Source: Seonamhaeicola sp. S2-3 | GTDB taxonomy: Bacteria; Bacteroidota; Bacteroidia; Flavobacteriales; Flavobacteriaceae | Assembly (NCBI RefSeq): GCF_001971785.1 | Contig: NZ_CP019389.1 | Location: 2,863,001-2,927,000 of the forward strand | Length of the DNA stretch: 64,000 nt | Direction of reading: 5' to 3' | In this document: in pieces, positions 41,619 through 63,867 of the stretch | How positions within the stretch are numbered: the first letter of the stretch is position 1 | Layout: every line of letters starts with the position of its first letter | Position numbers and translations under genes: made by a program | The notes under the pieces: generated by a model | Told to the model about the DNA's origin: nothing | The model's input: only the letters and a program-made list of their open reading frames with translations | Database searches by the model: none

Positions 41619-43616
41619 CTACAAATTATAAAAAGACTTATCATTTTCATATTCTGAGCATCCTACCCAAAACTGATTTCCATCGTCATCAAATTTAAAA
41701 ACAAATTCTTCTTTACCTCTTGAATTATTTTTTAGTAAATACAATAGGTTTTTTGGTATTGAATTATAATATAAGACAGTATCATTAGCCTTCTTTTTCC
41801 CTAAAGAAACCCATTTTTTATCCCAATAATGTAACTCATATTCATCTCCTATATTGATATGATTTTGATCATTTCTAGCTTGAATTTCAAAACCAAAAAT
41901 TTCCTTGGGTTGACTAAAAGCATAGGTTATTGATAAAAATTTTCTTTCTACATATGATAACTGATTGTCATCAATGATATTGGAATAATCATCAGGTTCT
42001 TCTTCATTGTTTATGAGTAACTTATTCCAATCTTTTAAAACCTCGCCATTTTTATTATCTAATAATTTAAAACTAGCAATACTAACTTTTCTACCATATT
42101 TCTTGGCTTTAAACCTAAAAAACTTATACTTTTTCGGAGTGTCGAAATAAAACTTAATACTTTGCGTACTCTTGAATTTTGAAATTGTATCTAAATTGAT
42201 ATAATGTTCATCAGAATCAATATTTGCTCCTTGAATTATTGCTCCATTTAAATCCTCAATTCTTCTATATTTTTGTTTTTTTGATTTGATTCTAAAAGGC
42301 GGATATTTCCTCAACAATTTTGCTTTTCCTAGCAAAGTAATGGTATCATTAAAAAAAATAACTTTTCCTTCTTTAGTAAGTTCAAAAGGATAGTTAATAG
42401 GTGTATCTGGGTCATTAACATAAGGGAAGTATATAATATTGTTTCCCATATTTTTAAAAAAGACACTATTATTCTTAATCTTTTCAGCTGTTGCAATCTT
42501 AAAAAGATCTTTATTAGAATCGTAAATTCCTAAAAAGGTATTACTATTAGTTAGTTTATTAACGTTCCAAATAGCAGGAATATCGACGTCAAAAACATCT
42601 CTATATAAATGAGTTACTTCATAGGGAGGTTCTTGTTTTTTATGATAATGCTGCCTGTAAACTTTAGGAATACTACTAAACTTAAACGTTTTTTCTAAAT
42701 CAAAATACACGGGGCCACTATTCAAGGCTCTTTGACTGCCATTATTCAAATAAAAAACCCATGTATGAGCTCCTCCACTTCTATTTGTATTTCCTAACTT
42801 GGTAGTATAATCAACACCTGCTGGAATACCTAAAGCCCTAAGAATATATACAATATAATTAGTTATATCAGTACAATCTCCAATCTTAATATGGTTTATT
42901 TGAGAAAATGAATATGGGTAATTATAAGTAGGATGGCGCTTTGATATCACTCGAAATCTATTGATGTCATATATTTTCGCTACCACATCATCCAAAGAAT
43001 TCGTTTTTAACGAATCATATACCCATGAATATTCTTCATATAATTCTTTTCTTTTATTAACTTCAATAGGTTCTTGACCAACTCTATAAGGTAATATATA
43101 ATATAAAAAATCATCAAAATTTTGGCATAGTTCTAATGGCATCTTTTTATGAGCCATAAACGCTAATTCAATATTATCGATCAAAAATTGTGAATCTATA
43201 TATTTCAAATCATAATGTAAAATTGGCGAAGTATCTATTGTTCTGTTGTTTTTTGTTATTGAATCTAGCAACACCCCAAGCTTAGCATACGTGGAGTCTT
43301 TTGGATTTTTCTCACGGGGGTTTACTCTTATCTGTCTTTCACGTTCTTTACCAGCTAATACAAATGCTTCATCAAAAATTTTATTTCCTTTTTTAAAAGA
43401 ATGATAGGGCATATTTTCTATCAAATAATAAGCAGATTTAAGCTTTAAACTATCATTAGGTTTCTTGTTGTATTTATTTATCACTTTTAAAAGCTCGCTT
43501 TTATTTTCTCCTGCTAATGAAAGTGCTTGTTTTACTTCTTTTGGAAGGTTTCCTTTACTGCAAGAGCAAAAAGTTAAACTAAAAATAAATACTATACCTA
43601 ATCTTTTAAATATCAT
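41619..43616 (-). CDS. Transglutaminase-like lipoprotein
   Basis: A 665-residue exported protein with a lipoprotein-type signal (IVFIFSLTFCSCSKGN; lipid Cys 17 or 19). Residues ~235-310 form a transglutaminase-like core: Cys248 in INHIKIGDCTDITNYIVYIL, His284 in GGAHTWVFYLNNG and an Asp in VYFDLEK about 20 residues later. Proteins with this Cys-His-Asp set act as proteases, amidases or cross-linkers. The C-terminal ~230 residues are beta-rich and look like a discoidin-type ligand-binding domain (IQGANIDSDEHYINLDTI, SQPKEIFGFEIQARND). Its substrate is unknown. It is the last gene of the minus-strand peptide cluster, 15 bp after a signal peptidase gene, so it may act on the cluster's products. 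Confidence 0.72.
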   Translation of the reverse strand: MIFKRLGIVFIFSLTFCSCSKGNLPKEVKQALSLAGENKSELLKVINKYNKKPNDSLKLKSAYYLIENMPYHSFKKGNKIFDEAFVLAGKERERQIRVNPREKNPKDSTYAKLGVLLDSITKNNRTIDTSPILHYDLKYIDSQFLIDNIELAFMAHKKMPLELCQNFDDFLYYILPYRVGQEPIEVNKRKELYEEYSWVYDSLKTNSLDDVVAKIYDINRFRVISKRHPTYNYPYSFSQINHIKIGDCTDITNYIVYILRALGIPAGVDYTTKLGNTNRSGGAHTWVFYLNNGSQRALNSGPVYFDLEKTFKFSSIPKVYRQHYHKKQEPPYEVTHLYRDVFDVDIPAIWNVNKLTNSNTFLGIYDSNKDLFKIATAEKIKNNSVFFKNMGNNIIYFPYVNDPDTPINYPFELTKEGKVIFFNDTITLLGKAKLLRKYPPFRIKSKKQKYRRIEDLNGAIIQGANIDSDEHYINLDTISKFKSTQSIKFYFDTPKKYKFFRFKAKKYGRKVSIASFKLLDNKNGEVLKDWNKLLINNEEEPDDYSNIIDDNQLSYVERKFLSITYAFSQPKEIFGFEIQARNDQNHINIGDEYELHYWDKKWVSLGKKKANDTVLYYNSIPKNLLYLLKNNSRGKEEFVFKFDDDGNQFWVGCSEYENDKSFYNL

Positions 43617-43631
43617 TTTTGGTCGTGTTTT

Positions 43632-44858
43632 TTAGTCTATACTTTTTAATAGACGATTCCATTGAAATTTGTTTTTATAATTCGAGAATAATACACAATG
43701 TACTTTGCCAATAATGTTTTCTTCTGGCAAAAATCCCCATACTCTAGAATCTGAACTTGCTTTTCTATTATCACCCATCATAAAATAATAGTTTTTTTTA
43801 AAGGTATAGGTTGTTGCTATTTTACCGTTAACATAAAATTTACCTTCATCATGTTTTATGTTTACTTTTTCAAATTTGTCAATGGTTTTCTCATACAACA
43901 AATAATTTTCGTAGTTTAAATCAATTTGCATTCCTTTTTTAGGGATTACAAATGGCCCCATAGAATCGAAGGTCCAGTTTTTGTTGGGTAATTTTGCTAA
44001 AAACTTCCTTTTGGGTCTAAAAGGGTCTAAACTTATTTGGAAATTCTCAATGCTTTCTAAGTTTTTAATCTTTTCTACCTCTTCCTCTGACAATATGGCT
44101 TTCAAGTAGTTATTATGACGAATGATACTAAATTTAATATGTCCCAAATTTAAAGAGTCAATTGCGTTATCAAAAGCCGTTTTATGCTTTACCTTAAATT
44201 TATACCTATATTTTACTGCTTCAACTTTAAAAACTTTACTATTGTTATAAACTATTCCGTTTTTTATCTGTAAAGTATCGCCAGCAACAGCAACACATCG
44301 TTTTACTAAAATAAAGTCTTTTCTGAAAAGAGAGTTAAACACGATAACATCGCCTTTTTTAATAGTGTCTGTACCAGAAAATCTTTTATAAGGCCACCAA
44401 TATTCTTTAAACCGTTTTCTTGCATTTTCGTTATAGTAGTAAGCTATGTTTATAAAAAGAATATCAAAAGGTGAACGTGGTAGTCGTGGGCCATATTTTA
44501 GTTTGTTTACTATAATAACGTCTTTAGGAAATAAAGTGTTTTCCATAGATGGACTAGGTATTCTAAATATTCCGAAAACGAATGTTTTGAAACTTGATAG
44601 AACTAACATTAAAAAAAATAAACTTAAAATGATTTTAAGTACTTTTTTTAAATAACTATTTTTAATTAGAGATAACCACTTGCTAGTTATAATGTAAACT
44701 AAACATAATACTACTAAAAACATAAAAAACCAGAGTTTTCCTGTTATCAAAATGAATAGCAAAAAAAACAAAATTAGATAGTGTTTGTTCTTTATGTTAG
44801 AAAAGCTAATTGTCTTCAAACTTGATATATTAATGGATAGTAAGTTGGTTATTGACAT
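43632..44858 (-). CDS. Signal peptidase I paralogue A
   Basis: A 408-residue S26 signal peptidase. Two to three hydrophobic helices occupy residues ~26-97, followed by nucleophile Ser104 in FRIPSPSMENTLFPKD and general base Lys186 in FILVKRCVAVAGD. The family end motif YFMMGDNRKASSDSRVWGFL is near the C-terminus. Between Ser and Lys lies about 80 residues, longer than in E. coli LepB, including KYGPRLPRSPFD and RFKEYWWPYKRFSG. It closely resembles paralogue B at 49935-51101 in all these parts. Two such genes inside one cluster of secreted peptides suggest dedicated processing enzymes rather than the housekeeping LepB, which would lie elsewhere. It is 15 bp before the transglutaminase-like gene. 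Confidence 0.9.
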   Translation of the reverse strand: MSITNLLSINISSLKTISFSNIKNKHYLILFFLLFILITGKLWFFMFLVVLCLVYIITSKWLSLIKNSYLKKVLKIILSLFFLMLVLSSFKTFVFGIFRIPSPSMENTLFPKDVIIVNKLKYGPRLPRSPFDILFINIAYYYNENARKRFKEYWWPYKRFSGTDTIKKGDVIVFNSLFRKDFILVKRCVAVAGDTLQIKNGIVYNNSKVFKVEAVKYRYKFKVKHKTAFDNAIDSLNLGHIKFSIIRHNNYLKAILSEEEVEKIKNLESIENFQISLDPFRPKRKFLAKLPNKNWTFDSMGPFVIPKKGMQIDLNYENYLLYEKTIDKFEKVNIKHDEGKFYVNGKIATTYTFKKNYYFMMGDNRKASSDSRVWGFLPEENIIGKVHCVLFSNYKNKFQWNRLLKSID

Positions 44859-44968: not shown

Positions 44969-44992
44969 ATACTCTAGTTTTTTAGAAAGTCA

Positions 44993-45190
44993 TTATTTAT
45001 TAATGATTTGTTTAATAGAAAAAATAAAAAGACCTAAAAAGCCAGCAGTTCCTAATAGGGATACATAAAATTTCCAATTATCAAAACCATTCGGAACTCC
45101 TTTTTCTATAAATAGAAATAAACTTCTAAAAAATAGAATTCCTATAATTATAAACATAATCCTTACCCGTCTATTTTCATTTTTTTTCAT
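44993..45190 (-). CDS. Small two-helix membrane protein, possible immunity protein
   Basis: A 65-residue protein from ATG 45190 (MKKNENRRVRIMFIIIGILF), with hydrophobic segments at ~11-25 and ~44-61 (FYVSLLGTAGFLGLFIFSIK). An ATG at 45211 would add seven residues and overlap the end of the lipoprotein gene by 11 bp, allowing translational coupling; either start is possible. It lies immediately behind the gene for a lipoprotein with a bacteriocin-like tail. Small two-helix membrane proteins placed so are often immunity proteins of class II-like bacteriocins. That role is inference from position and topology; no family was recognised. Confidence 0.55.
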   Translation of the reverse strand: MKKNENRRVRIMFIIIGILFFRSLFLFIEKGVPNGFDNWKFYVSLLGTAGFLGLFIFSIKQIINK

Positions 45191-45200
45191 AATTCGTTTT

Positions 45201-46238
45201 TTAACACGCATCAGCAGTACCTAATGCTGTTAATGCCCCAGATATACCACCAACAATTGCTCCAACCGCTCCACAAGCAACTGTTCCTATTCCAGGAATA
45301 ACTACGGTACAAGTTGCAGCAGGAAGAAACCACCCCGCTAATGCACCAGTACCAGCTCCTCCTAGGGTGGCTGCTGTACATTTGCCCCATGAACTCCACC
45401 AACTCTCTTCATCATCCTCAGATGCATAATCAGTATCAGAACCATCTCCGTAGCCATCTCTGTAACCATTTCCATAGGCATCTTGAAGTTGATACCAGTC
45501 TGACCATGAAATCCCATCACCTATATTAGAAGAAGGAACTATTATAACCACTTCGGGAAGCACCTCTACTTCACCATCAGCATGCGCCATTTTTGTTAAA
45601 TCTAAAAGGCTAGTATTATTAAAGGCCATTGTGGTTCCTGTTTTTATTTTTTTTGGTCTATACTCAGCTTTTCCTGGTAAATAACCAGTTCTTACCAGCT
45701 TATTCATTTCTTTAATCCCATAGTAATTAATTGCAATCATTTGATGTAACACCTGTCGTTCTCCTTCTGGAACTAATTCGTCAACTCTTTGGTTAATAGC
45801 GGCAAGCTTGTCCATAAATGCAAGTGCCGATTTACTGTGGGTACGCGCATGTTCAATTGCGTTAAGAGCACGCTGTTGCATGGTAGTTAGTGTCTGCTGA
45901 TTAGCCTTTTTATTATTTTGCTTAAAAGAAACATTCTTTTCTTCCAACATCAGCATCTCTTCTTTTGGAATAGCATACCGCTTACCAATTACCTCTGAAG
46001 TTGCTTCAGAAGAAAGTTTTTGTACAGTCGAGTAGTTTTTTAAATCAATGTTGTCTTTCTTTATCTTCTTTGTTGTTTTGCTCAAACTTTCAGCAAAAAG
46101 GTTACCTAGCTCAATATCAGATTTACTAAAATTTGGTTTAACTCCATTATAATATATGTCTTCAAATTCTTGTTTATCTGAGCAAGAATTAAATACCATA
46201 AGCATTGCAATAAATGCTAAATAAATTATTTTTTTCAT
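45201..46238 (-). CDS. Lipoprotein with internal AxA motif and Gly/Ala-rich bacteriocin-like tail
   Basis: A 345-residue protein with a clear lipoprotein signal (MKKIIYLAFIAMLMVFNSCSD; Cys19). Residues 20-205 are polar and helical. At 211-224, LLDLTKMAHADGEV matches the processing motif of the two peptides in this cluster, with AHA at 218-220 followed by Asp221. A region rich in Asp, Gly and Tyr follows (DAYGNGYRDGYGDGSD, 253-268). Residues 287-345 are Gly/Ala-rich with small-xxx-small patterns (ATLGGAGTGALAGWF, GAVGAIVGGISGALTALG) and Cys287, 310, 322 and 345, the last being the C-terminus. Such tails resemble pore-forming class II bacteriocins. Cleavage at AHA would release 125 residues. 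Family unknown; function inferred only from pattern and context. Confidence 0.72.
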   Translation of the reverse strand: MKKIIYLAFIAMLMVFNSCSDKQEFEDIYYNGVKPNFSKSDIELGNLFAESLSKTTKKIKKDNIDLKNYSTVQKLSSEATSEVIGKRYAIPKEEMLMLEEKNVSFKQNNKKANQQTLTTMQQRALNAIEHARTHSKSALAFMDKLAAINQRVDELVPEGERQVLHQMIAINYYGIKEMNKLVRTGYLPGKAEYRPKKIKTGTTMAFNNTSLLDLTKMAHADGEVEVLPEVVIIVPSSNIGDGISWSDWYQLQDAYGNGYRDGYGDGSDTDYASEDDEESWWSSWGKCTAATLGGAGTGALAGWFLPAATCTVVIPGIGTVACGAVGAIVGGISGALTALGTADAC

Positions 46239-46766: not shown

Positions 46767-49700
46767 TCAAACTCTCTTACTTGTCCTTAAGAATAAAGGC
46801 AAATAGAAAAATATCCCCATCAAAGAAAAAATTAAACCTCCAATAGAACCTACAGCGAATGAAAACCAAAAGGCTTCGTTTTGTCCATGCCATACAAAAG
46901 GTATTAATCCTACAATCGTAGATACTATAGTTAACACTACAGGAATTATTTTATAATTAAATGCCTTGAAGTATAGGGAGCTATTGTTTCTATTTGGGTA
47001 ATCCTTTTTTAAATTATTAAAATCATTAATAATGTATAATGCTGAATTTACACTTATACCACAAAGCAAAATAAAGGACGCATAACCTCCCTGATCAAAA
47101 TTAAAATCGAATAGATAGAACGTTAAAAACACGCCAATGAATGAAATAGGAATCATACTAATTATTGCAAAGGGCTGTTTTAATGATTCTAAAAGAATGG
47201 CACAAATAAAAAATATAATAGCGATGACTATAAATAAATAATAATATTGTGTTTTTTCTTTTTTATTCCAACGTCTATACTTTTGTTCAAAAACTTTATA
47301 ACCAAGTGGTAGCTTAGGTTCAAAGTTTTCAATGGCGCTTTCTCTGACTCTTTGAGCTAGCTGTGTTGTTCCTAAAAAATCGTAAGCAACAGTCAAACTG
47401 TATTGCTGATTGTTCTTTTTAATAGTATTTCCGGTTTTCTTTTTTTCTATGGACGCTAATTGGTTTAACTTATATTGCTTATTCTGAATAGTTATTGGTG
47501 TATTTTTTAAGTCCCAAACATTAAACTTTTTGTATTTATCTGAAACTAACTTTACATGTTGTAATTCATTATTATTGGTTATCGGTGCGAGACGTCCAGA
47601 ATGGACTTGACTTTTTAAGTAGCCATATAATTGATTTTGAGACACATTAGCAAGTGCCAGTTTATTGGTATCAAAGTCTAAATAATACTCATACAAAGCA
47701 TTATCTCGCCAACTCCCGCTAGTTATTTCTACATCTTTAACACGTGAATTTGAACCATCAATTAATTGCTGTTGCAATTGTTCTGCATACCCATACAATT
47801 TATCATAATTATAACCTTCTAAAATAATCCTATTTTGTTTGGAGCCCGTCCCTAAGGCATTTGAAAATCCTCTACCAACACCAGTAACTGCCCAATCTAA
47901 TCCGCCAAGACTAATGGCTTTAGATTCCAGTAAACTTTTTAAAGTGTATGGGAAGCCACTAAACTCATGATCCTCTTTAAAGTAAATGGAAATATTAGAA
48001 TTTCTATAACTCGATATACGTGTTTCAAACAATTCAATTTCATCAAATCGACTTAAATAAGATTCCATTTTATTGATGGCTTCATTAAGTTGTTGAATAG
48101 TACATCCATCAGGCATTTTACCCGTAACTCGTAATGTGGTTCTTTCAGGTTCAGAATAATGAGAATTTTCAAAAACATCTTCAGTAAACAACCTTAAAGC
48201 ACCTCCAATTATTTTTTCTAAAGTGGGTCTTACATCATTAGCAAACCATTCTGTTCCTATACTTTTATTATAAATATTTATGTAAAAATCATCACCATCT
48301 AGTTCTTTTGGTAATAAATGAAAAGGAATACCGAAACCTAATATAAAAATTAAGATAAACGCCCATTTATAGCGTGGTCTTTTCATCCAAAAAATAATTC
48401 GTGAATAAAAATTTGTAAACCTTATAATTCTTCTTTTGCGTTTCCTTGAAAATTTAACACGTTTATTAGACACCTTCATTTTCTCTAAAAGCGCTGGCAC
48501 ATAATACAGCGATACTAATAAAGACACACCAATATTTATAGCAATAACCAAAGCGAAATCCAACAAATCGGCTTGTTGACTTTCTTCTAATAAAAAGATA
48601 ATCATTAGTGCGCCTATAGTCGTTAATGTTGCCGCTAAAATAGCTAAAAACGCTTTTTTATTACCTTTGTGTCTTATATGATCTATCATGATGATACTAT
48701 TATCTATAATAATCCCGAAAGAAATGGTAATACCTGCAAAAGAATATAGTTGGAGTTCTACATGGAATAGATAATAAAAAATAATGGCAATAAGAAGGTT
48801 TGTTATAATGCTTAGAAATAAAACAGCTAAATATTTAAAGCTTCTATTAATAATAAGAATTAAGATTAATAAAATAAGAAACGAAAACAAAGTGCGTTTT
48901 TGAATTTTCTGCAATTCCTCAACCACATATTCTGTTGTGTCATGAGTTAGCTTAATGGTATAACCTGTATCTAATTCTTTAATTAAATCAGTAACTTTAG
49001 TTTTTACAACATTTGCTAAATCAATAGTGTTAACATCTTGTTCTGCATAAATGGTCATATTAATAGTATTTAAACCATTTATTCTATAATAACTATTTAC
49101 ATCAGCTTCCTTGTAAGTCACTTTTGCAATATTCTCTAAGTAAATAACTCTATTTGATATCTTTTTTATAGGAATGGTATTCCAGTTTATTTCAGTTTCT
49201 GGTTTGTAAGCTAGGTTTAATGATAGTTCATTGTCAACGGAATTATTCGGTCTTTTAAAAACAGCATTCCCTAATTCTTTTGTGTTAAGATAGGTATTGA
49301 TGGCACTTTGGATATCATTTACAGAAAGTTTTAGTTGATAAAGCACTTTGGTGTCATATACAATAACCCATTCAAAAGGGGCTGCACCATTAACATTTAC
49401 TTTATTTACACCCTTAATTGTGGATAGCTTAGGGAGTATATGCTGCTCCGCATATTTTTTAATATAATATGGACTTTCGTTAGCATTGATGCTATAAGAT
49501 AAAATAGGCGATTTATTTTCATTTGGTGCACTTAAAGAAAGGTTTGGATAACTTACTCCATCTGGGAGTTCAGAATGCGATTGCCTAATTAGGTTAGCTA
49601 GTTCAAACCTAACAGCATCTAAATTGGTGTTTTTTTTAAATGTAATTGATATGTTTGCGCGACCTTTATCAGAGGTAGAACTTATACTTTTTACACCCTT

Positions 49701-51113: not shown

Positions 51114-51740
51114 TTATCGAACTGTATTATTGCTAAGAAAATTTTTAGAGACGTTAATCAAATAACTTTCTGATAATTGTGACTTATCTTTATGAGGTAT
51201 AAAAAAATTGGATGTTCTTAAAGTTGAATCAATACAGAAATAATAGGGCATATTAAGTTTATCAGCGGGAGTATTTAAACCTTTATCAGGAAGCAAATAC
51301 ATTTTAAAATTTTTAAGACCTCTATTCTGTAAAACTTTTGAAAAAACATGTAAATCTCTTGGATTTCTATAATGTACTATTAAACAAATATCATTTGCAA
51401 TTAGTGCATTATTTTTCAATATTGCAATAAATTCTGCTTTTATACAATCTGTGCAGTTAGATTCCGAATAACGAAAAACAAGAGTGTTTTTTTTAAATAT
51501 ATCTTTGGTTAAAATAATATTTCCGTTTGCATCTATTAACTTAATGTTTTCATTCAATTTAATATTTTCACTTTTACCTACTTCAATAATATTTTGTTCT
51601 AATTCTAGAAGTTCTTTTTTCTTATTTTTTAAAACAGTGCTAATATCCTTAATAACTTTGGAATAATTGTTAAGTTTAATTATTAAGAAACCATTTAAAA
51701 CAATAAGCGAAATTATAATAACGTATTTTCTATTTGTCAT
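51114..51740 (-). CDS. Membrane-anchored thioredoxin-like CxxC protein 1
   Basis: A 208-residue protein with one N-terminal transmembrane anchor (YVIIISLIVLNGFLIIKL), a short coiled coil (ISTVLKNKKKELLELEQNII), and a thioredoxin-like periplasmic domain. Its CxxC is in SESNCTDCIKAEF (about 96-99), at the start of a helix after a beta-strand (TLVFRYSES), as in TlpA and AhpC-like folds. The later conserved cis-Pro region may be in NMPYYFCID. It has the position and shape of the protein at 59562-60143. It probably forms, reduces or shuffles disulfides of the Cys-rich peptide encoded two genes upstream, but no substrate is proven. Length is within the usual range. Confidence 0.68.
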   Translation of the reverse strand: MTNRKYVIIISLIVLNGFLIIKLNNYSKVIKDISTVLKNKKKELLELEQNIIEVGKSENIKLNENIKLIDANGNIILTKDIFKKNTLVFRYSESNCTDCIKAEFIAILKNNALIANDICLIVHYRNPRDLHVFSKVLQNRGLKNFKMYLLPDKGLNTPADKLNMPYYFCIDSTLRTSNFFIPHKDKSQLSESYLINVSKNFLSNNTVR

Positions 51741-55333: not shown

Positions 55334-58300
55334 ATTTTCTTAGTAAAATGATAATAACAAAGTGGAATAAAGTACAGACTTACTAAAGTCCCAAGTAGCA
55401 TCCCACCAATTAAAGCCACCGCTAAAGGCGCTTGTAACTCTGCGCCTAATCCACTAGAAAACAATAAAGGCACTAGGGCTAGAATGGTTGTTAAACTTGT
55501 CATTAATATTGGTTTTAAACGTCTTTGTCCTGCTACGAACAAGGCTTTGACCAAGGAAAAGCCTTGGTGTTGTAATTGAATTATAGTATCTATTTTTAAA
55601 ATAGAATCGTTTATAATAATACCGGCCATAACCACGAGGCCTATCATAGACATAAGGTTAATACTCATGCCAAACAATTTTAAGAACAAAAATGCGCCTG
55701 CTAAATCTATAGGCACTTCTAGTAATATGATGAGCGGCAAAACAAAAGACTCAAATTGCGAGGCTAGAATAAAGTAAAGCAGTACTAAAGAAATTAATAA
55801 AACAATTTTAAGCTCTCCCATGAGTTCTTTGTTTGAAAAAAAGCTCCCTGAAAAACTAACATCAAACCACGAATTATGACTTACTACCTCCTTTACCTTA
55901 TTTATAGTAGATTCAACCTGATTATCATTAACATTAAATTGAACAGGAAAATATTCTCCCTCTGTACCTCCTGTTATGGTTTTTAAATCTTTAGCCTTTA
56001 CTGTTTTTATAAAGTTTTTTATTTGAAAAACAGCACTATCTTTCGCCTTTACCGTAGTTTCATTTAAAATAGCGTTAAGATGCTTAGTTTGATTTCCTAG
56101 TATAACAGGAACAAAATTTTGATTATCAGTTATAGACAAAATTTCACGTTCGTTAAAAGCGCTTTTTAAGGTGTTAAATAATGTGCTAGAAGCCACATTA
56201 TAGGTTATTAACTTTTCTTGGTCGGCTATAAGTGTAATATGATCTTCCCATGCTATAGGTTTTAATGTGATATCATTTAGGTGGCTTTGTATTTGATACC
56301 AAAGAGTTTTTAACTGTTCGTTTTGTTGACTTCCTAAATTTTCTACATGCCTTAAACGAGCAACTAAAGGCGCGTCTTTATTAGAAAATATTAAACTAAA
56401 AATATTATCTACATCTTGAAAATTATAATTCGCATTAGGGTAAGCTAACTTAAGAGCATCGCTCAAAGTATCAATTATTTTAAATAATGCTGTTTGCGAT
56501 TTGGTTTTAATGTAAATAGTAGTTTCAGAAGTTTTAGCGTCCGCATTTTTATCTAATAGAAATTGTTGCGTACCTACGAGTGCCGTTTGATTAATTAAAT
56601 CTTTGGTTACAGGTTTTAATAACTCTAGAACTCTGCGTTTGTTTTCGTCAACATTAATAGGCGCGTTCCAATCTATTTTCAGTATGGTTTCTGAGCTAGA
56701 AAATTGAGGCATTTGAGATTTTGGTAATACAGTAAATAATGCCATTGCGGCAACCAAAAGCAAAAGACTTATACCCCAAGATATTTGCTGTTTTCGCATT
56801 ACCCAACGGAATCCTTTTTCATAAACATCAGCGTAGTTTACTGTGTTTATTTCAGTTAGAAAACGATTTATTTTATGTGATGTTTTCGTTTTTCTTAAAT
56901 GAAACAAACGGTACAATACAGGTAATAATGTAATAGAAACAAAAAAGGAAATAAATAAACCTATGCTTATAGCCATGGCTTGATCGTAAAACAAAGCCCC
57001 ACTAACACCACTTAAAAACACTAAAGGAATAAACACCGCACAGGTGGTTAAGGCTGAACTTAACAAAGGTTTTATAACCTCTGTAGTTCCCGTAACACAA
57101 GCCTTAGATAAATTATAACCACGCTCTCTATATTGGGTTATATTATCTATAACAATAATAGAATTATCTATCATAAGCCCAATACCCAACACCAAACCAG
57201 AAAGCGATATAATATTTATTGAAATATTTAACAAATGAAAAAACAATAAACAAATAATAATAGAGGTTGGTATAGTAATCCCTATTAATAAAGGAGATGT
57301 TATATTTTTTAAGAAAAAAAACATGACTATAAAAGCCAATAACATACCCCATAATAAACTTTGAAATAAATTGTTTATAGCATAATCTAATAGTTTAGTT
57401 TGATCTCTAGTTATTGAAAAATTAATATGCGGATAGTCCTTTTTTAACGCTTTTATTAGTTTATTTAGTGATGCTTTTAAATCGTTCATTTTAGCATCAC
57501 TTTGTTTTATAATAGCCATGGTTAAGGCTTCATCACCCTGAGACAAAACCAATCCTGTCCTCTTTTGCGGATGTTCAATAACTTCGGCTAGTTCTTTTAA
57601 CTGAAATACGCGATTTTGGTGATTGATATAAACGGACTCAATATCTTTTATGGTATTTAATGAAGTGCCTAAGCGCACATCGTATTGGTACTGATTGTCT
57701 TTTATTAATAAACTCCCTATATCTAAGTCATTTTTCTTTATACTAGATTCTAAATTTTCTAAGCTAATCCCCAGAGCATCTAATTTATTTTGATTTGGTA
57801 TAATAATAATTTCAGAAGACACCAATCCACTAATATCTACCATAGCAACCTCGTTAACCTGCTCTATGCGCTTTCGAATAACTTGATTGGTAAAACGATT
57901 AAAATCTACAAATTTCTGAGATACAGGGTATAAACTGCTCGTTTCATTTTTCCCATTTTTAATATTACCCTTAGCCTCATTAATTGACATGCTTAAATAA
58001 AAAACAGGAATATCTGTAGCACTAGCCTTTATAACTTTAGGTCGTTTTACAGTTTTTGGCAACCCACCCATAATACGGTCTATCTTTTCATTGACTTCTA
58101 TAAACGCGTAGTCTATATTGGTGCCGTGCGTAAAACTTAATCGTATAACTCCAGATGCTTTACTCGTTTCACTTTTTATATCCTTTAAATGACTCACTTG
58201 CATTAAACGGTATCGTAAAGGTTTTACAATAGCATCTTCTAATTGTCTTGCCGACATGTTATCTGCTTGTACCTGAACAGTAATCTCTGGCACATCTATA

Positions 58301-58410
58301 TCAGGCATTAAGGAAACAGGGATAAACCCAAAAGCATATACGCCTAAAATAAGAATACCTAAAGCCGTCATTAAAACAGCGATGGGTTTATGTATTAAAA
58401 ATTTTACCAT
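55330..58410 (-). CDS. RND-family efflux permease B
   Basis: A 1,026-residue inner-membrane pump with the usual two-fold layout. The N-terminus FLIHKPIAVLMTALGILILG, the DIDVPEITVQVQADNMSARQ segment and the helix repeats fit the HAE1/AcrB group. TM4 is GLMIDNSIIVIDNI with Asp-Asn where AcrB has Asp-Asp, and TM10 GIIINDSILKIDTI differs from the AcrB Lys site. The same Asp-Asn substitution occurs in permease A. It is coupled to the TolC-like gene (4-bp overlap) and follows the fusion protein gene by 9 bp, so it forms a full exporter. The export substrate may be a product of this cluster rather than a drug; this is inference. Confidence 0.9.
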   Translation of the reverse strand: MVKFLIHKPIAVLMTALGILILGVYAFGFIPVSLMPDIDVPEITVQVQADNMSARQLEDAIVKPLRYRLMQVSHLKDIKSETSKASGVIRLSFTHGTNIDYAFIEVNEKIDRIMGGLPKTVKRPKVIKASATDIPVFYLSMSINEAKGNIKNGKNETSSLYPVSQKFVDFNRFTNQVIRKRIEQVNEVAMVDISGLVSSEIIIIPNQNKLDALGISLENLESSIKKNDLDIGSLLIKDNQYQYDVRLGTSLNTIKDIESVYINHQNRVFQLKELAEVIEHPQKRTGLVLSQGDEALTMAIIKQSDAKMNDLKASLNKLIKALKKDYPHINFSITRDQTKLLDYAINNLFQSLLWGMLLAFIVMFFFLKNITSPLLIGITIPTSIIICLLFFHLLNISINIISLSGLVLGIGLMIDNSIIVIDNITQYRERGYNLSKACVTGTTEVIKPLLSSALTTCAVFIPLVFLSGVSGALFYDQAMAISIGLFISFFVSITLLPVLYRLFHLRKTKTSHKINRFLTEINTVNYADVYEKGFRWVMRKQQISWGISLLLLVAAMALFTVLPKSQMPQFSSSETILKIDWNAPINVDENKRRVLELLKPVTKDLINQTALVGTQQFLLDKNADAKTSETTIYIKTKSQTALFKIIDTLSDALKLAYPNANYNFQDVDNIFSLIFSNKDAPLVARLRHVENLGSQQNEQLKTLWYQIQSHLNDITLKPIAWEDHITLIADQEKLITYNVASSTLFNTLKSAFNEREILSITDNQNFVPVILGNQTKHLNAILNETTVKAKDSAVFQIKNFIKTVKAKDLKTITGGTEGEYFPVQFNVNDNQVESTINKVKEVVSHNSWFDVSFSGSFFSNKELMGELKIVLLISLVLLYFILASQFESFVLPLIILLEVPIDLAGAFLFLKLFGMSINLMSMIGLVVMAGIIINDSILKIDTIIQLQHQGFSLVKALFVAGQRRLKPILMTSLTTILALVPLLFSSGLGAELQAPLAVALIGGMLLGTLVSLYFIPLCYYHFTKKI

Positions 58411-58419: not shown

Positions 58420-59520
58420 TTAATGACTATTTTTAACACTTACCTCACTATCATGAGCTAAATTTAAGTTGTTGGAGATAATAATAGTATCTCCTACAGT
58501 TAAAGATGCACTACTTTTATCTGGATGGGGTATCACAGCATAGGCTTTACTGTTTTCAAGTGTTTTCAGGATATAAGTCCAATAGGCTTTACCGTTTTTA
58601 ACCGTAAATAACACCTCTTGATTATCTCTTAAAACGACTGCCGATTTAGGCACGACAAATTGATCTGGAATGTCCTTTTTAATAAAGACCTTAACATTCA
58701 TGCCTTCTAATAAATGACCATCATTTTTCACTTGGGCTTTTATTAAAATAGTGCCATCTTTTTCAACCTGTGGATTTATGGTGGTTATGGCGCCTTCGTA
58801 AGATTTACTTGTTGCAAAAGGTTCAATTGATATTTTATCTTTTGATTTAATATCTTTAAGTTCAGATTCTATCACATAAAATTCCACCTCAAAGACAGCA
58901 TCATTTATTAACGTAATAAATGCTTTGCCCGAATTGATCTGATCGTGTTTTTTACTATCTATATTGGCTATTTTACCACTAAAAGGCGCTATAAGTTTGG
59001 TGGATTTTAAATCGAATTGCGCATTTTCTAATTGATGAAGGGCATTTTTATAACCAGACTTAATAGCCATCATCTCATATTCTTCTTTGGGAATGGCATC
59101 TTTATTATCGGCATTAAAACCGCGTCGAATTTGTAAATCGTTAAACTCTAAAGTGGCTTGTTTTAAATCTATTTCTGCTTTATTTACTTTTTGATGGTAA
59201 GTAAAAGCATCTAAACTAGCCAATAGCTGCCCTTTTGTAACATAATCTCCATTTTTAACGTAAATGTTATTGAGTTTTTCGCTTACATTGAATTTTAATT
59301 CGCTTTTTTCTAAAGCTACAAGCCTACCGTTACTGACGAGTTCTTTCTTGAATGCCCCTTTATCTAAAACCAAAATATCTACCTCGTTTTTTTCGGGGAG
59401 ATATTGTTTTTTGTTAATGGATTTTTCTTTATTTTCTTTGGGTTTGTTGCAGTTCAATAAAATGCTAAAACAAATCATTAAAAAAATACAGCGTGTTAAA
59501 TTTTGACGTTTTTTACTCAT
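58420..59520 (-). CDS. RND membrane fusion lipoprotein
   Basis: A 366-residue periplasmic adaptor with a lipoprotein signal (IFLMICFSILLNCNKPK; Cys24). The lipoyl halves are NVSEKLNNIYVKNGDYVTKGQLLASLD and KLIAPFSGKIANIDSKKH; between them lies a helical hairpin (KAEIDLKQATLEFNDLQI). A beta-barrel domain (FEVEFYVIESELKDI) and a membrane-proximal domain complete the HlyD/AcrA fold. It links permease B to the TolC-like channel, and the three genes are contiguous. Upstream, 41 bp away, is CxxC protein 2, so the exporter is attached to the second peptide module. Confidence 0.9.
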   Translation of the reverse strand: MSKKRQNLTRCIFLMICFSILLNCNKPKENKEKSINKKQYLPEKNEVDILVLDKGAFKKELVSNGRLVALEKSELKFNVSEKLNNIYVKNGDYVTKGQLLASLDAFTYHQKVNKAEIDLKQATLEFNDLQIRRGFNADNKDAIPKEEYEMMAIKSGYKNALHQLENAQFDLKSTKLIAPFSGKIANIDSKKHDQINSGKAFITLINDAVFEVEFYVIESELKDIKSKDKISIEPFATSKSYEGAITTINPQVEKDGTILIKAQVKNDGHLLEGMNVKVFIKKDIPDQFVVPKSAVVLRDNQEVLFTVKNGKAYWTYILKTLENSKAYAVIPHPDKSSASLTVGDTIIISNNLNLAHDSEVSVKNSH

Positions 59521-59561: not shown

Positions 59562-60143
59562 TCAATCAATATTGTTTATTTGCTTAAAATATCTATCCTC
59601 TAAATTTGTTGAAGATTTTATAGGGAAAAAGACATTTGAAACCTCTAAATCCTCGTCTATTGTAAAATAATATGGATAAGATGCGTTTTCCATATTTCTG
59701 TAAAAAGAAATATTGTTGTTCATTATTGAATACATAGGGGCGCTTATTTCCTTTTCTTTTTTTATTAACTTCAATTCCCTTAAAGAAAAACCATTAGAAA
59801 CAATTATATATTTCTTACCACTATTTTTTATTTTTGCAAGAGAGTCTTCAATACATGAATCACAAAAACGAGAACTTATATATAATACAATAGTTAAATC
59901 ATAAAAAACATCTTCAACAAGTTTTGAATTGCCTTCAATAGATTGTAACACATAATTATCTGGAAATTTAAAAAACCCTGAATACTTTGATTGTAATAAA
60001 ACCCTAGATTTTAACTCTACTATTTCATCATTTTGTTTTTGCGATACATTTTTATATTCTTCTAATGAGTAAATATAAAATGAACCTAAAAAAAAGAACA
60101 TAAATAATAATACACCAATATATAGCCAGTTTTTATTCATCAA
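59562..60143 (-). CDS. Membrane-anchored thioredoxin-like CxxC protein 2
   Basis: A 193-residue protein with an N-terminal anchor (WLYIGVLLFMFFFLGSFYIY) and a periplasmic domain containing TIVLYISSRFCDSCIEDSLAK (CxxC about 95-98; given in two parts: TIVLYISSRF then CDSCIEDSL). This is a thioredoxin-like active site after a beta-strand. It is the counterpart of the protein at 51114-51740: same order, size and anchor. Its ATG overlaps the stop codon of propeller 2 by 4 bp, so the two are made together. A role in disulfide formation of the six-Cys peptide 2 is inferred. Confidence 0.66.
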   Translation of the reverse strand: MMNKNWLYIGVLLFMFFFLGSFYIYSLEEYKNVSQKQNDEIVELKSRVLLQSKYSGFFKFPDNYVLQSIEGNSKLVEDVFYDLTIVLYISSRFCDSCIEDSLAKIKNSGKKYIIVSNGFSLRELKLIKKEKEISAPMYSIMNNNISFYRNMENASYPYYFTIDEDLEVSNVFFPIKSSTNLEDRYFKQINNID

Positions 60144-61417
60144 AAGTCCTTTAATTTGTAAGTTATTATAACTGGGTTATCCATTTGTTTTATTTTACTT
60201 ATTTTTTCCCAATCACTCTCTTTTACATACTTTTTAATTTTTTCATTCGCCCAAATATGATTCTTTAATCCGTATATATCATTAGATTCTCGTATACCAA
60301 TAAAAGTGCCATCATTTTTACATGCAAGAGGGGGGGTTACCAGTATAGTTAGAGGTTTTTCTTTATTAAACTTAAAGCCATTACCGTACATCAAAGATTT
60401 AGATTCCTTATTATAAAACAAAAATGCTCCCCTTTCATTTCCAAAAACTTCAAAAAAACAAAATTTACCTGCTATTAAATAATCACCTGAAAAGTATAAG
60501 TGATTAGAAAGTAGCTGTCTAAATTCATCACTATTCAGATTTCTTTCCCAAGCATCACTTGGCAAACCTTTTTCATCATACTCAAATTTGATTTCAGGTA
60601 CCAATCCACTATCATCAACTCTCCAAATACCGTCAGAATATGGGTGATGATAATATATCTTATCACCAAACTTTCGCAGAGGCTTTCTAGAGACTAATGA
60701 ATTAGGATTGTCTGGGTTTTTAAAACCTAGTCCCAATGGAACTGAATTACTATCTGCTAAAATAAGACTATACGAGGCTATTGAAGGAGTTCGAAGGTTT
60801 TTTTGCACTTTGCTGGCAGTAAAAATTGAGTTGTGTTCTCCATACTCATGCTGCCAAATCATATAATACAACGGCCTTGAGTCTATAATTTCTCCTGAAA
60901 ACTTATACCTAAATATTTTTCTAAGTTTAGTATCTAGAATTGAAATAAACTTCTTTTTATCATTAATGGCAATATCACTAATGCTAAGTAACTCTCCGGG
61001 ACCTTTCCCTATTGTTCCTATATTGTTTAAAAATTCACCATTATGATTAAAGCGCAATAATTTATTATTTCTTTTATCATGAATAAAATAATAGTTTGAA
61101 CAGAATAAGATGTTATGGACTTTTCCTATAATGCTATTTGGTGAGGTCTCTAAAGGTATAATTTCTATACTAGAAATCAGATCTGCCAAATTAATCTTTA
61201 AAGAACCTAGTACATTTTTTGGAATCACTACTTTTTCGGCCCCATTATTATATATATCAAATAATTTGATATCATCCTTGTTAATTTCAATTTGCTCTTT
61301 ATGCCCCTTTGCACCAATACTATTTAAAATTGTTTCGTTATTAGATGTATGTCTACAACTGTAAAACAAAGAAATTAATAAAATTATTGATACTTTTAAA
61401 CTTATAATACTCTTCAT
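60140..61417 (-). CDS. 6-bladed beta-propeller lipoprotein 2
   Basis: A 425-residue protein read from ATG 61417 (MKSIISLKVSIILLISLFYS, lipid Cys21). The 36 in-frame residues above this Met run into the spacer after the peptide gene and are not part of it. Propeller signatures include IEIIPLETSPNSIIGKVHNI, YYFIHDKRNNKLLRFNHNG and the hallmark IGKGPGELLSISDIAIND. Paralogous to the propeller at 51763-52917 but diverged and longer. It follows peptide 2 by 52 bp and is translationally coupled (ATGA) to CxxC protein 2. The role is unknown; see propeller 1. Confidence 0.82.
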   Translation of the reverse strand: MKSIISLKVSIILLISLFYSCRHTSNNETILNSIGAKGHKEQIEINKDDIKLFDIYNNGAEKVVIPKNVLGSLKINLADLISSIEIIPLETSPNSIIGKVHNILFCSNYYFIHDKRNNKLLRFNHNGEFLNNIGTIGKGPGELLSISDIAINDKKKFISILDTKLRKIFRYKFSGEIIDSRPLYYMIWQHEYGEHNSIFTASKVQKNLRTPSIASYSLILADSNSVPLGLGFKNPDNPNSLVSRKPLRKFGDKIYYHHPYSDGIWRVDDSGLVPEIKFEYDEKGLPSDAWERNLNSDEFRQLLSNHLYFSGDYLIAGKFCFFEVFGNERGAFLFYNKESKSLMYGNGFKFNKEKPLTILVTPPLACKNDGTFIGIRESNDIYGLKNHIWANEKIKKYVKESDWEKISKIKQMDNPVIITYKLKDF

Positions 61418-61469
61418 TTTTATATTTATTTTTTTTAAAGGGTAGATTTTTAACCCACCCGTTGTTAAA

Positions 61470-61799
61470 TTAGCAAGAAGGATCGAAAGGAGTACAATTC
61501 GCCCAAGGACCAAATTCTGGCACACAATCTATCCCACCAGGTACCCAATAATAGCTTTCTTCAACTCTACCGTCATCGTGATAAATCCATGAGGTACACT
61601 TTCTCTGATAACTCACTGGTTCATCAGCATAAGGCTCTTCATCACAATCAGAATTCCACCACGGACATTCTGCATTGGCAGTATTCATAGATATAGCATC
61701 AGCTAAATTAAATTTTCTACTTTCCACTGCATTTGTGTTTAAAAACATAGCCAGCACAAATGCCGCTAGAAATCCAATTGCTTTTATCGTTTTTTTCAT
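61470..61799 (-). CDS. Six-Cys secreted peptide 2, NVEALA-like precursor
   Basis: A 109-residue precursor. Its hydrophobic segment (KAIGFLAAFVLAMFLNTNA, 6-24) is followed by LADAISMNTANAECPWW; the AxA is at 41-43 with Glu44 next, the same pattern as in peptide 1 and NVEALA-family leaders. The mature part (44-109, 66 residues) has six Cys at 45, 52, 68, 92, 102 and 109, again with a C-terminal Cys, and many Trp and Tyr (CPWWNSDCDEEP, SWIYHDDGRVEESYYW). The mature sequences of the two peptides do not align beyond Cys number, so they may be fast-evolving. Upstream is element copy 3. Confidence 0.72.
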   Translation of the reverse strand: MKKTIKAIGFLAAFVLAMFLNTNAVESRKFNLADAISMNTANAECPWWNSDCDEEPYADEPVSYQRKCTSWIYHDDGRVEESYYWVPGGIDCVPEFGPWANCTPFDPSC

Positions 61800-61835
61800 T
61801 TTATTAAATTTTAAATTTATACTTATTAATATTTT

Positions 61836-61990
61836 AAGTTTTATAAGGCATACTACTTTTAGAATATGTAATAGACTAATACATTAGACTACTAAAATCT
61901 TTTTTAAAGATTCCCTTATTGTAAAAAAACACTTTATATCATTGGCATTGGTTTTTAGTTAAACAATTTGTTTTTGTGATTATATGTTTC
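61836..61990 (-). repeat. Conserved upstream element, copy 3 (before peptide 2)
   Basis: A diverged copy. The inner hairpin is reduced to AAGT (about 61836-61839) and ACTT (61855-61858), in a matching context (TAAAAGTAGTAT). The block 61939-61985 (tcattggcat...ttttagttaaacaatttg...gtgattatat) matches the 57-bp block of copies 1 and 2 with a few substitutions and a 5-nt insertion. Unlike those copies, this block is inside a gene: it encodes the last residues and stop of the O-antigen-ligase-like protein. Confidence 0.7.
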
Positions 61991-63867
61991 ATTTCTTGCC
62001 GTATTTCTTTTATAGCGGTTGATGGTATTTTAACATCTTTACTTAATATAGTTTTCGCCATAGCTAATGCTTTTCCATTCTGTCCGCTCTCATCATACAA
62101 TTTCGCTAATAAATAAGGTGGGTAAAACCGTGACGGAATCATATTAGCAGCATGTTTATAAGCAGCTTCTGCTTGTTTGTACTGTTTCATGTTTTTATAA
62201 GTATCCCCTAAAGCGGTTTCAATAATAGTGGTGTTTAAATGTGTTTTTGAGCGTTCTAAAATTTGTATGGCTTTTTTATCCTGTTTGTAAATAGAAAGTG
62301 CTTTACCGTAATTCATTAAAAATTCACCATTATTCTTTAATTTGGGGTAAGCTGCTTGGTATTCTGCTATAGCACTTTCATAATCACCATATTGATAACT
62401 GCTTTGAGCCAGTTTCCAATTTTTAAAGCTGGCATCTAATCTATTTACATAATTAAAACTAAAGACACTTATTAATAGAAGACTTACTAGTATTGAAGTT
62501 TTTAAAGCAAGTTTAATAGAAGAATTAATTTTTAAACTTTGAAATCGCTTTGTTTTGCTTTGGTCTAACAAGGCTAAACCAGCCAACAAAACAAGCATAA
62601 TAAGTTTAATAGGAAGGATTTCCATGGGATATGAAAAAAACGCAAAGACCCCAATGGACACTAAACTTATTTTTAAAATGATACTTAACTCCTTGTTTTC
62701 TTTTCTGGCAGATGTTTTTATAATGAAATATAAAATTAGTATCAATATGATAAAACCAAAGACTCCCTGTTCGGTTATAAATTGAATAAACTCATTAAAG
62801 GCATAATACGAATTGTCCGCCACCAAAGCTTCTGGAGTTTCTCCATGCTCTGAAAAGTAATGAGCTTGATAGTTCATATAGTAAGCCTTAAAGCGATCAA
62901 AACCTACACCAAAAAATGGGTTATCCTTGATAATTTCGGTAGCGGTTTTCCAAATAAATAAACGCCCGTCTGAAGAGCCCTTTTTAAGATGATAAATACC
63001 AAATAGACTTATCCCTATAATCAATACAGAACCAGCGATTAAAATAGCTTTTTTTAAATTAGTTAGTTGCTTAAAAAGTGTCTTTAAAATTTGATAACGC
63101 AGCTCAAACAAAAGCAGACTAATTATTAAAACAGCTAACCATGCGGCTCTAGATTGTGTAGCGGGAATGATTAGAACAATACTTATTATACCGAGTAAGG
63201 GAACATACTCAAATGAAAGTTTTGTTATAGTATTGAGAATTAAATCCCTTTTCGTGCTTGCATTAAACAAAACTAGGCTGCTAATCACTTTTTCTCTAAA
63301 TAGATACAAACCTAAAGCAATTGGAAAAACAGAGGCTAGAAACCCCGCATAAGGCCCAGGATTGAAATAACTTCCTGTTAATTTAAACCCTGAATGATTA
63401 GATGGATAATATCCTAATAATTGGAGGTTGCCATAAATGGCTTGAATAATGCCAGAGATTACAATAGCCAATAACAACCAGTAAAACGTCTTAATATCTA
63501 GGATCCTAAAAATCAGATAAAGGAATCCAATCCCTAATAATTCAATAAATCTAATAGAAAAACTATAATTTGTTTGAAATAAATATCTATTTGTTACTAT
63601 ATAAATAAGCAGAGCTACTAAAACAATATCCAAACGAGATAATGAGAGGTTAGTTACTTTCGATTTTAAAATCCAGAAAGAGCTTATTCCTAACAAAACT
63701 GCACAGAAATAGACAAATACGATAAACTTACTAGTAATTGTTGATTGAGGATAGCTTGTTATATTTATTTGAGGAATACATACTAATAAAACTATAACAA
63801 AGAGAATATTTAAAAACTTTTTTGATTCAAAGTCAAGAAAATTTGATACAATTTTACCTCTAGACAT
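61939..63867 (-). CDS. O-antigen-ligase-like membrane protein with TPR tail
   Basis: A 642-residue polytopic protein with ten or more hydrophobic helices in residues ~15-460 and a Wzy_C-type core: GSYFNPGPYAGFLASVFPIA (about 165-184) and SSDGRLFIWKTATEIIKDNP then FFGVGFDRFKAYY in the large periplasmic loop. A TPR region follows (GDYESAIAEYQAAYPKLKNN, QYKQAEAAYKHAANM), ending in IITKTNCLTKNQCQ. Enzymes of this fold join lipid-linked glycans to lipid A or, as PglL-type oligosaccharyltransferases, to proteins. No lipopolysaccharide gene is nearby, while Cys-rich secreted peptides follow at once, so protein O-glycosylation is worth considering. It begins the visible part of the cluster. Confidence 0.78.
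   Translation of the reverse strand: MSRGKIVSNFLDFESKKFLNILFVIVLLVCIPQINITSYPQSTITSKFIVFVYFCAVLLGISSFWILKSKVTNLSLSRLDIVLVALLIYIVTNRYLFQTNYSFSIRFIELLGIGFLYLIFRILDIKTFYWLLLAIVISGIIQAIYGNLQLLGYYPSNHSGFKLTGSYFNPGPYAGFLASVFPIALGLYLFREKVISSLVLFNASTKRDLILNTITKLSFEYVPLLGIISIVLIIPATQSRAAWLAVLIISLLLFELRYQILKTLFKQLTNLKKAILIAGSVLIIGISLFGIYHLKKGSSDGRLFIWKTATEIIKDNPFFGVGFDRFKAYYMNYQAHYFSEHGETPEALVADNSYYAFNEFIQFITEQGVFGFIILILILYFIIKTSARKENKELSIILKISLVSIGVFAFFSYPMEILPIKLIMLVLLAGLALLDQSKTKRFQSLKINSSIKLALKTSILVSLLLISVFSFNYVNRLDASFKNWKLAQSSYQYGDYESAIAEYQAAYPKLKNNGEFLMNYGKALSIYKQDKKAIQILERSKTHLNTTIIETALGDTYKNMKQYKQAEAAYKHAANMIPSRFYPPYLLAKLYDESGQNGKALAMAKTILSKDVKIPSTAIKEIRQEMKHIITKTNCLTKNQCQ

Follow-up and report, generated by a model that had tools for sequence, protein, structure and literature searches.

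A one-strand gene cluster of Seonamhaeicola sp. S2-3 proposed to mature and export small Cys-rich peptides through a two-subunit RND pump

A cluster of seventeen genes was analysed in a 64,000-nucleotide stretch of DNA, hereafter the window, from Seonamhaeicola sp. S2-3 (assembly GCF_001971785.1, contig NZ_CP019389.1, positions 2,863,001 to 2,927,000 of the forward strand), whose genome (G000; G and L numbers designate genomes and loci, respectively) comprises 3.75 Mb in one contig. The cluster extends over window positions 41619-63867, lies entirely on the minus strand, and probably constitutes a self-contained system for the maturation and export of small disulfide-rich peptides, in which exchangeable cargo cassettes would be served by one chassis. 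In gene order, its members are listed below (aa, amino acids; HTH, helix-turn-helix; MFP, periplasmic adaptor; ORF, open reading frame; RND, resistance-nodulation-division; SPase, signal peptidase).

61939..63867, minus strand: first gene, 642 aa, a membrane protein with Wzy_C (O-antigen ligase superfamily) and TPRs at the C-terminus (Wzy_C E 8.9e-22)
61470..61799, minus strand: peptide 1, a 109-aa precursor; AxA ends at A43, and the mature part is predicted at 61473-61670 and contains 6 Cys
60140..61417, minus strand: propeller lipoprotein 1 (DUF5128 E 3.4e-41; lipobox in the translation)
59562..60143, minus strand: membrane-anchored CxxC protein 1, putatively thioredoxin-like (27% identical to CxxC2)
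58420..59520, minus strand: MFP, a lipoprotein (TIGR01730 144.2 bits, cut-off 94.9)
55330..58410, minus strand: RND1, first RND permease subunit (ACR_tran E 3.8e-176)
53816..55333, minus strand: TolC-like outer membrane channel (OEP E 3.7e-29)
53604..53804, minus strand: 66-aa HTH protein, DeoR-like (HTH_DeoR E 5.3e-4, 20.1 bits, just under the cut-off of 21)
52996..53334, minus strand: peptide 2, a 112-aa precursor; AxA ends at A44, and the mature part is predicted at 52999-53202 and contains 6 Cys
51763..52917, minus strand: propeller lipoprotein 2 (DUF5128 E 3.1e-39)
51114..51740, minus strand: membrane-anchored CxxC protein 2, putatively thioredoxin-like (modelled with AlphaFold2)
49935..51101, minus strand: signal peptidase I homologue 1 (SPase1), 388 aa (TIGR02227 125.7 bits, cut-off 47)
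46767..49910, minus strand: RND2, second, divergent RND permease subunit (ACR_tran E 5.2e-97; ATG at 49910)
45201..46238, minus strand: tailed lipoprotein, the C-terminal tail being Gly-rich and zipper-like and containing Cys (from the translation)
44993..45211, minus strand: 72-aa two-helix membrane ORF (relative in Algibacter pacificus, L018)
43632..44858, minus strand: signal peptidase I homologue 2 (SPase2), 408 aa (TIGR02227 115.2 bits, cut-off 47; 63% identical to SPase1)
41619..43616, minus strand: transglutaminase-like lipoprotein (Transglut_core E 2.5e-6, 28.1 bits, cut-off 23)

A preliminary description of this DNA, made from the letters alone, had proposed a one-strand cluster of 22 kb, and this was borne out by the seventeen minus-strand genes, which are separated by short gaps (9-78 bp within blocks) or overlap by 4 bp (propeller 1/CxxC1 and RND1/TolC) or 11 bp (tailed lipoprotein/72-aa ORF). 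Wider gaps precede peptide 1 (139 bp), peptide 2 (269 bp), the tailed lipoprotein (528 bp), and SPase2 (134 bp), so that several transcripts are possible. The genes upstream of 63867 are unrelated to the cluster and mostly lie on the plus strand, and the cluster end is therefore placed at 63867. The families named in that description were recovered by Pfam and TIGRFAM profile matches, namely Peptidase_S26 (twice), the DUF5128 propeller (twice), ACR_tran (twice), HlyD/RND_mfp, OEP, and Wzy_C with TPR. Its view of the set as duplicated fared unevenly, being sound for the SPases (63% identity), weakly tenable for the peptides, propellers, and CxxC proteins (27-35% over parts), and untenable for the RND proteins (22%).

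In the mechanism proposed here, the precursor would be inserted by Sec as a membrane-anchored leader, the cutting site of which would lie about 25 residues beyond the hydrophobic core, an unusually long distance. Disulfides in the periplasmic core would be formed or shuffled by the CxxC protein, which is membrane-anchored and putatively thioredoxin-like, and a dedicated SPase would cut at AxA (ANA in the window peptides, NVEALA in those of gut Bacteroidales) to release a peptide of about 30-80 residues, which may then be handed, perhaps via the propeller lipoprotein, to a tripartite pump and leave the cell. This pump would be composed of the MFP, a pair of unlike subunits (RND1 and RND2), and TolC. 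Further maturation or attachment steps might be supplied by the Wzy-type protein and by the transglutaminase-like lipoprotein.

The comparison with relatives supports the view that the precursors belong to a family in which the leaders are conserved and the Cys-rich cores change between genera. The relative of peptide 1 in Aestuariibaculum sp. M13 is identical at 38/44 leader and 21/61 core residues, and that of peptide 2 in Hyunsoonleella ulvae at 34/44 and 26/68, respectively. A leader model built from 20 leaders retrieved 33 ORFs at E <= 2e-4, a number that counts the seeds and one duplicate. Among 59 peptides, which were partly picked by their AxA or NVEALA site and a few of which carry wrong script-assigned sites, the spacer from the hydrophobic core to AxA has a median of 25 residues, the same in the NVEALA and ANA classes, and the Cys count is even in 55.

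Independent of such sites was a screen by location, for which small ORFs upstream of propellers were chosen by position and signal-like N-terminus only (n=48, one of them, at L100, mis-trimmed). All 48 contain at least two Cys, as against 17/52 signal-like ORFs taken at any position from 27 comparison windows (20 random windows and 7 stretches upstream of the phylum-sample loci; p 2e-14), and AxA at residues 34-53 was found in 37/48 versus 5/52 (p 2e-12), the comparison ORFs being unmatched for lying upstream of a gene. The 11 without a distal AxA resemble, by eye, ordinary signal-peptide proteins except one mis-trimmed NVEALA peptide. Peptides 1 and 2 gave no Pfam match at E <= 1 and did not reach the cut-off of the NVEALA family PF14055, to which the whole genome contributed two weak matches, both below the cut-off and outside the window; the literal motif N[VI]EALA is absent from the window peptides, which have ANA at that place. 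Cores that look alike by eye were noticed in distant genomes, with G-x-L-x-G-N...G-T-x-x-C-C followed by more Cys (clearest at L015:1563-1769, L102:8271-8510, and L139:15996-16277; also at L140:1136-1372).

For propeller 1, the ATG at 61417 is a better start than the GTG at 61525, and with the start so moved the lipobox comes to lie at the N-terminus and the overlap with peptide 1 disappears. Apart from the two cluster propellers, the genome contains no DUF5128 match at E <= 1e-5. In an alignment of five CxxC proteins, C-C and a Pro are invariant, and the best Foldseek matches of the CxxC2 model are ResA and TlpA (E 3.8e-7), which suggests, with modest confidence, a thioredoxin-like fold of the ResA/TlpA type. 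Residues S81, S83, and K165 of SPase1 are invariant, the Ser and Lys being kept in 7/7 aligned SPases. A further SPase copy elsewhere in the genome, a 529-aa open frame, was taken as housekeeping. Likewise, a search with SPase1 over 149 Flavobacteriaceae genomes gave matches in 137, most of which have open frames of >500 aa, also taken as housekeeping, and shorter cluster-type frames (354-429 aa) were found in G000 (2), G044, G131 (2), G018, and G002. SPase presence was first compared between leader classes (22/24 distal versus 4/7 classical, p 0.06) and then, after a post hoc regrouping by AxA flag with hand counts (19/21 versus 3/7, p 0.02), so that its going together with distal-AxA leaders amounts to a post hoc trend only.

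The two RND proteins, which had been described as two duplicated pumps, are better explained as parts of one. RND1 and RND2 are just 22% identical, and among 149 Flavobacteriaceae genera RND2 (E <= 1e-200) occurs in 5, the very five in which RND1 orthologues (E <= 1e-150) occur with equal copy numbers, two each in G131 (chance 1.7e-9; the copy numbers are lower bounds, at most five candidates having been scored per genome). The low identity and this co-occurrence suggest one pump with two unlike subunits, and the duplicated pumps were rejected on the same grounds. In the fetched loci, 57 hold both genes, and RND2 appears without RND1 in 37/94, many of them truncated. Among sequences >35% identical to the RND proteins of the window, the Asp of transmembrane segment 4 is kept in both RND1 (100% of 58) and RND2 (97% of 92), whereas the Asp and Lys of the segment 10 stretch are kept in RND1 (98%) and both missing from the corresponding stretch of RND2, an asymmetry that fits a two-subunit pump. 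The distance correlation of RND1 with RND2 (Spearman 0.947 over 57 loci) was the highest of ten pairs tested, the others being Wzy-RND2 (0.924, 13 loci), MFP-RND1 (0.861), MFP-RND2 (0.837), TolC-RND1 (0.835), TolC-RND2 (0.773), SPase-RND2 (0.773), SPase-RND1 (0.69), transglutaminase-RND2 (0.491, 12 loci), and propeller-RND2 (0.164, 41 loci; the best-scoring propeller was taken where a locus has several); all are uncorrected for shared phylogeny. Separately, RND2 matches of about 4 kb instead of the usual 3.1 kb were seen at L035, L038, L042, L045, L047, L049, L051, L062, L080, and others, which suggests either about 300 inserted residues or a match spanning a gap.

Against this background, an ordinary multidrug efflux operon with unrelated neighbours, in which the peptides would be chance ORFs or unrelated secreted proteins, appears highly improbable. 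RND1 and RND2 do match general multidrug RND models, well under their cut-offs, and in a sequence search of the PDB the nearest solved relatives of RND2 are ordinary drug pumps such as CmeB. Such an operon, however, accounts neither for the exact co-occurrence of RND1 and RND2, nor for leaders conserved between genera, nor for the enrichment of Cys and AxA upstream of propellers and of partner genes near RND2, which is given below.

Recurrence of the association in other Bacteroidota had been set beforehand as the refuting test, and the association survived the neighbourhood survey. Contigs were scanned with four RND2 sequences, and the best 80 loci were kept (more exist), which range from marine Flavobacteriaceae to Bacteroides, Phocaeicola, Odoribacter, and Prolixibacter; the closest named relative among the matches listed is Algibacter pacificus (Flavobacteriaceae), with an RND2 96% identical. 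Gene orders were determined for RND2 loci of at least 8 kb. For the enrichment test, the 47 of the 80 loci that reach at least 16 kb were compared with 20 random windows from 10 genomes, the 33 shorter loci being left out. Separately, L013 was dropped, being a duplicate of L024. Flanks were limited to 10 kb, and the labels came from profiles built on the window proteins (on fetched loci for added types) and are hence not curated. Enrichment was obtained for the propeller (32/47 versus 0/20), SPase (23/47 versus 0/20), leader-model peptide (15/47 versus 0/20), RND1 (39/47 versus 1/20), MFP (34/47 versus 2/20), and TolC (36/47 versus 0/20). Wzy (11/47), DUF1573 (11/47), CxxC (10/47), HTH (10/47), and a second CxxC type (8/47, p 0.048) were likewise absent from all 20 random windows. 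Not significant were a second propeller type (7/47 versus 0/20), NVEALA (4/47 versus 0/20), and a ToxR-like regulator (2/47 versus 1/20).

Individual loci add to this picture. The locus of G044 retains Wzy, MFP (80%), RND1 (91%), TolC (87%), and RND2 (78%), joined by an SPase (43-47%), a transglutaminase-like gene (37%), a CxxC lipoprotein, a Cys peptide, and a different type of propeller; in G018, RND is absent, and Wzy, propeller, CxxC, SPase, and peptide are present; and in G002 an SPase adjoins a transglutaminase-like gene. The five loci read in the four other genomes with cluster-type SPase frames (G044, G131, G018, and G002) thus show an export chassis that is conserved and a cargo cassette (peptide, type of propeller, CxxC, SPase) that varies. 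In each of the five RND2-bearing Flavobacteriaceae genomes, the cluster region encodes a propeller, a CxxC protein, and an SPase alongside Cys peptides, the CxxC ORF of G128 being recognised by eye only. G131 has two clusters, of which L014 contains DUF1573 without a labelled propeller or CxxC, and L015 contains both. In the phylum sample, RND2 was detected in 13/395 genomes (two candidates scored per genome), and 11 regions outside the family have a labelled propeller in 9, RND1 in 8, and SPase in 1, the SPase being therefore a feature of a subset and not of the whole RND2 family. In one of these genomes (G354) an unlabelled 400-aa ORF adjoins the CxxC gene, and the region of another (G480) is cut by the contig end.

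Several observations stand beside these loci. The signal peptidase of G128 lies in two reading frames (L127:15782-16338); a 73-aa peptide with a GG-like leader and C39/ABC-like ORFs, identified by eye, occur near the second G131 cluster (L015:11944-17951); and a protein of about 770-860 aa without a family name was seen in four loci (L021:6427-8739, L023, L025, L064), in some of them near SPase or RND2. In Algibacter pacificus (L018:3906-4710), the tailed lipoprotein is broken into two frames, and its Gly-rich tail is missing. In the window protein, an internal AHA-DGE resembles the AxA site of the peptides, and the leader model matches residues 208-224 with 3.4 bits, too weak for a link to be claimed.

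In gut Bacteroidales, the same surroundings are populated by NVEALA peptides. Of 18 genomes with RND2 loci that were searched, 9 gave a PF14055 match (8 of them above the cut-off), and none was obtained among those 18 in the Flavobacteriaceae, Draconibacterium, Prolixibacter, Odoribacter, and two Bacteroidaceae. Upstream of RND2 lie NVEALA peptides with propellers, DUF1573 or CxxC proteins (CxxC by eye), transglutaminase-like lipoproteins, an SPase of about 295 aa, and Wzy. The NVEALA-bearing RND2 regions were found in B. fragilis S82, B. congonensis, P. massiliensis, B. cutis, and Massilibacteroides vaginae (probably on the contigs of L067, L075, L076, L084, and L095, in no stated order), and B. 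oleiciplenus carries the same parts (L103) on a contig other than that of its RND2 locus (L089). For B. thetaiotaomicron VPI-5482, tables in PMC10434189 give, under neighbouring numbers, BT0662 (O-antigen ligase), BT0664 (6-bladed propeller), BT0667 (lepB), and BT0669 (RND adaptor), none of them significantly changed in that study; these genes are a candidate for a cluster of the same kind. A Pfam check of ten Bacteroidales proteins, nine from B. fragilis S82, placed Wzy_C, Peptidase_S26, DUF1573 (two proteins), and DUF4221 above the cut-off and Transglut_core and Trans_reg_C just under it; one CxxC ORF had no match, and a profile-labelled propeller (L099:11233-12372) had no propeller match.

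The Trans_reg_C hits (E 2.3e-5 and 5.4e-5, below the cut-off) belong to a ToxR-like membrane regulator. A conserved G(S/T)(V/I)xC NVEALA peptide lies at 30-230 bp from 7/9 distinct regulators of this kind (neighbours at L098, L099, L100, L101, L103, and L140), five of the seven being profile seeds that had been chosen for that very position. Of four regulators found independently, two are adjacent (L099 in B. fragilis and L140 in G507) and two are not (L102 and L119, the latter in a random window close to its edge). The adjacency is thus a lead for signalling and not proof, variable peptide cores would fit toxins equally well, and the only regulator candidate of the window itself is the 66-aa HTH protein. 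The wider proposal, that a peptide secretion system of Bacteroidota so far undescribed combines an RND pair, its own SPase, a thiol oxidoreductase, and a distal-AxA leader and includes a ToxR-like signalling circuit in gut Bacteroidales, is therefore put forward tentatively, with the five position-chosen seeds as the reason for its lower rating. Among the papers listed in searches of open-access literature, neither a description of such a peptide system nor anything on 'NVEALA' was found.

The Wzy-type and transglutaminase-like proteins invite another explanation, in which they would join the peptides to an outer-membrane glycan or protein, the products being surface decorations and not free peptides. 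Relatives of the Wzy protein occur in the clusters of G044, G018, and Bacteroidales, and relatives of the transglutaminase-like lipoprotein, which the preliminary description had not listed, occur in some other clusters; both families are present in six extended Bacteroidales regions, including that of B. fragilis, where Transglut_core falls under the Pfam cut-off. The core Cys and His of the transglutaminase are kept in 19/19 aligned rows (two rows represent one gene), a PDB sequence search with this protein gave no match at E <= 1, and the distances of Wzy follow those of RND2 closely. Within the limited flanks, however, Wzy was found at just 11/47 and the transglutaminase at 9/47 loci, no acceptor was identified, and attachment has no need of an exit through TolC, which makes this explanation distinctly unlikely.

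The chief objections to peptide export concern the cargo and the SPase. RND pumps are known mainly for small molecules, and a folded peptide of several kDa would be an unusual cargo. SPase is absent from 24/47 RND2 loci (with flanks limited) and from 10/11 phylum-sample regions outside the family, in which several peptides resemble proteins with an ordinary signal peptide, and G201 has RND2 without any labelled partner. The remaining objections are that the mean pLDDT of the CxxC2 model (60.3) is modest; that the transglutaminase enrichment is not significant (9/47 versus 1/20); that 7 ORFs upstream of other cluster genes include 3 with at least two Cys (two of them NVEALA peptides) and 2 with AxA; and that the even Cys count, found in 43/48 screened ORFs, is also found in 14/17 from the comparison windows. 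Parity is therefore not distinctive and was dropped as decisive proof of disulfides. The site-based selection of the spacer set, the unmatched comparison ORFs, and the shared phylogeny behind the distance correlations weigh on the same side.

The cargo, the missing SPases, and G201 would also suit one regulon with two pathways, in which the pump moves a small molecule or lipid, the usual cargo of its family, and the peptides remain anchored or periplasmic as sensors of envelope state. That explanation is rather unlikely, given that at L036 two of three RND2 genes come directly after a peptide-propeller-CxxC unit, that 9/11 phylum-sample regions hold a labelled propeller, and that conserved leaders with diverging cores are expected for released cargo. 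Maturation and export of the peptides thus stays the preferred reading, and the preliminary description is partly supported, by family recurrence, the Cys-rich peptide family, the thioredoxin-like CxxC model, and the SPase Ser/Lys, with its two pumps given up.

Left of the cluster, positions 40037-41181 contain tRNA-Ser, tRNA-Pro, a 133-aa ORF with an integrase-type arm domain, and the following neighbour, which is not a cluster member.

40858..41181, minus strand: BfmA/BtgA-type mobilisation protein (NF041200 89.5 bits, cut-off 24), at the left edge

The tRNA genes, the integrase-type ORF, and the mobilisation protein suggest that this side is an island junction. A scan for a Bacteroidetes-type promoter pattern gave 10 matches in the window versus 7.7 expected, none of them in the cluster gaps, and a sigma-70 scan gave 98 versus 95, both results being at chance level. 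An anti-phage defence system was considered and rejected, PADLOC having given three marginal matches (E 0.0026-0.0075) in two of the 10/17 cluster proteins submitted.

If the proposal is correct, a Gram-negative route of peptide export would exist in which an RND pair and a dedicated SPase replace the ABC exporter with its C39 peptidase, and the so far uncharacterised NVEALA peptides of gut Bacteroidales would gain a pathway. Cys-rich peptides with conserved leaders and variable cores, from gut and marine bacteria alike, would become candidates for signals or toxins, and the gene set would be directly testable.

Among known systems, the cluster SPases resemble signal peptidase I (S26, TIGR02227), scoring above the family cut-off and keeping the invariant Ser and Lys. 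They differ as extra, cluster-dedicated copies for which the proposed site is located about 25 residues beyond the hydrophobic core, whereas the canonical site lies only a few residues past it. CxxC2 shares with the thiol-disulfide oxidoreductases ResA and TlpA a membrane anchor, the CxxC, and a modelled thioredoxin-like fold, in contrast with which the CxxC proteins have no Pfam thioredoxin match. The leader architecture and partner genes of the window peptides are the same as those of the NVEALA peptides (PF14055) and 6-bladed propeller lipoproteins of gut Bacteroidales, a family for which we know of no assigned function: a basic start, a hydrophobic core, a Leu-rich spacer of about 25 residues, an AxA-type end, and a Cys-containing core are common to both, with ANA replacing NVEALA in the window, whose peptides do not match PF14055. 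The export of class II microcins and colicin V, for which PMC10352776 served as comparison, likewise involves a small peptide, an MFP, and TolC; in the cluster, the RND pair takes the place of the ABC exporter and SPase that of C39, and colicin V-type export was rejected, the cluster containing neither a double-glycine leader nor a C39 ABC transporter. Finally, MdtABC-TolC of E. coli offers the likeness of one adaptor, one TolC, and two unlike, co-occurring RND genes, and heteromultimeric MdtBC-like pumps are mentioned in PMC8300642; by comparison, RND1 and RND2 of the cluster are just 22% identical, and RND2 is sometimes present without RND1 in the fetched flank.

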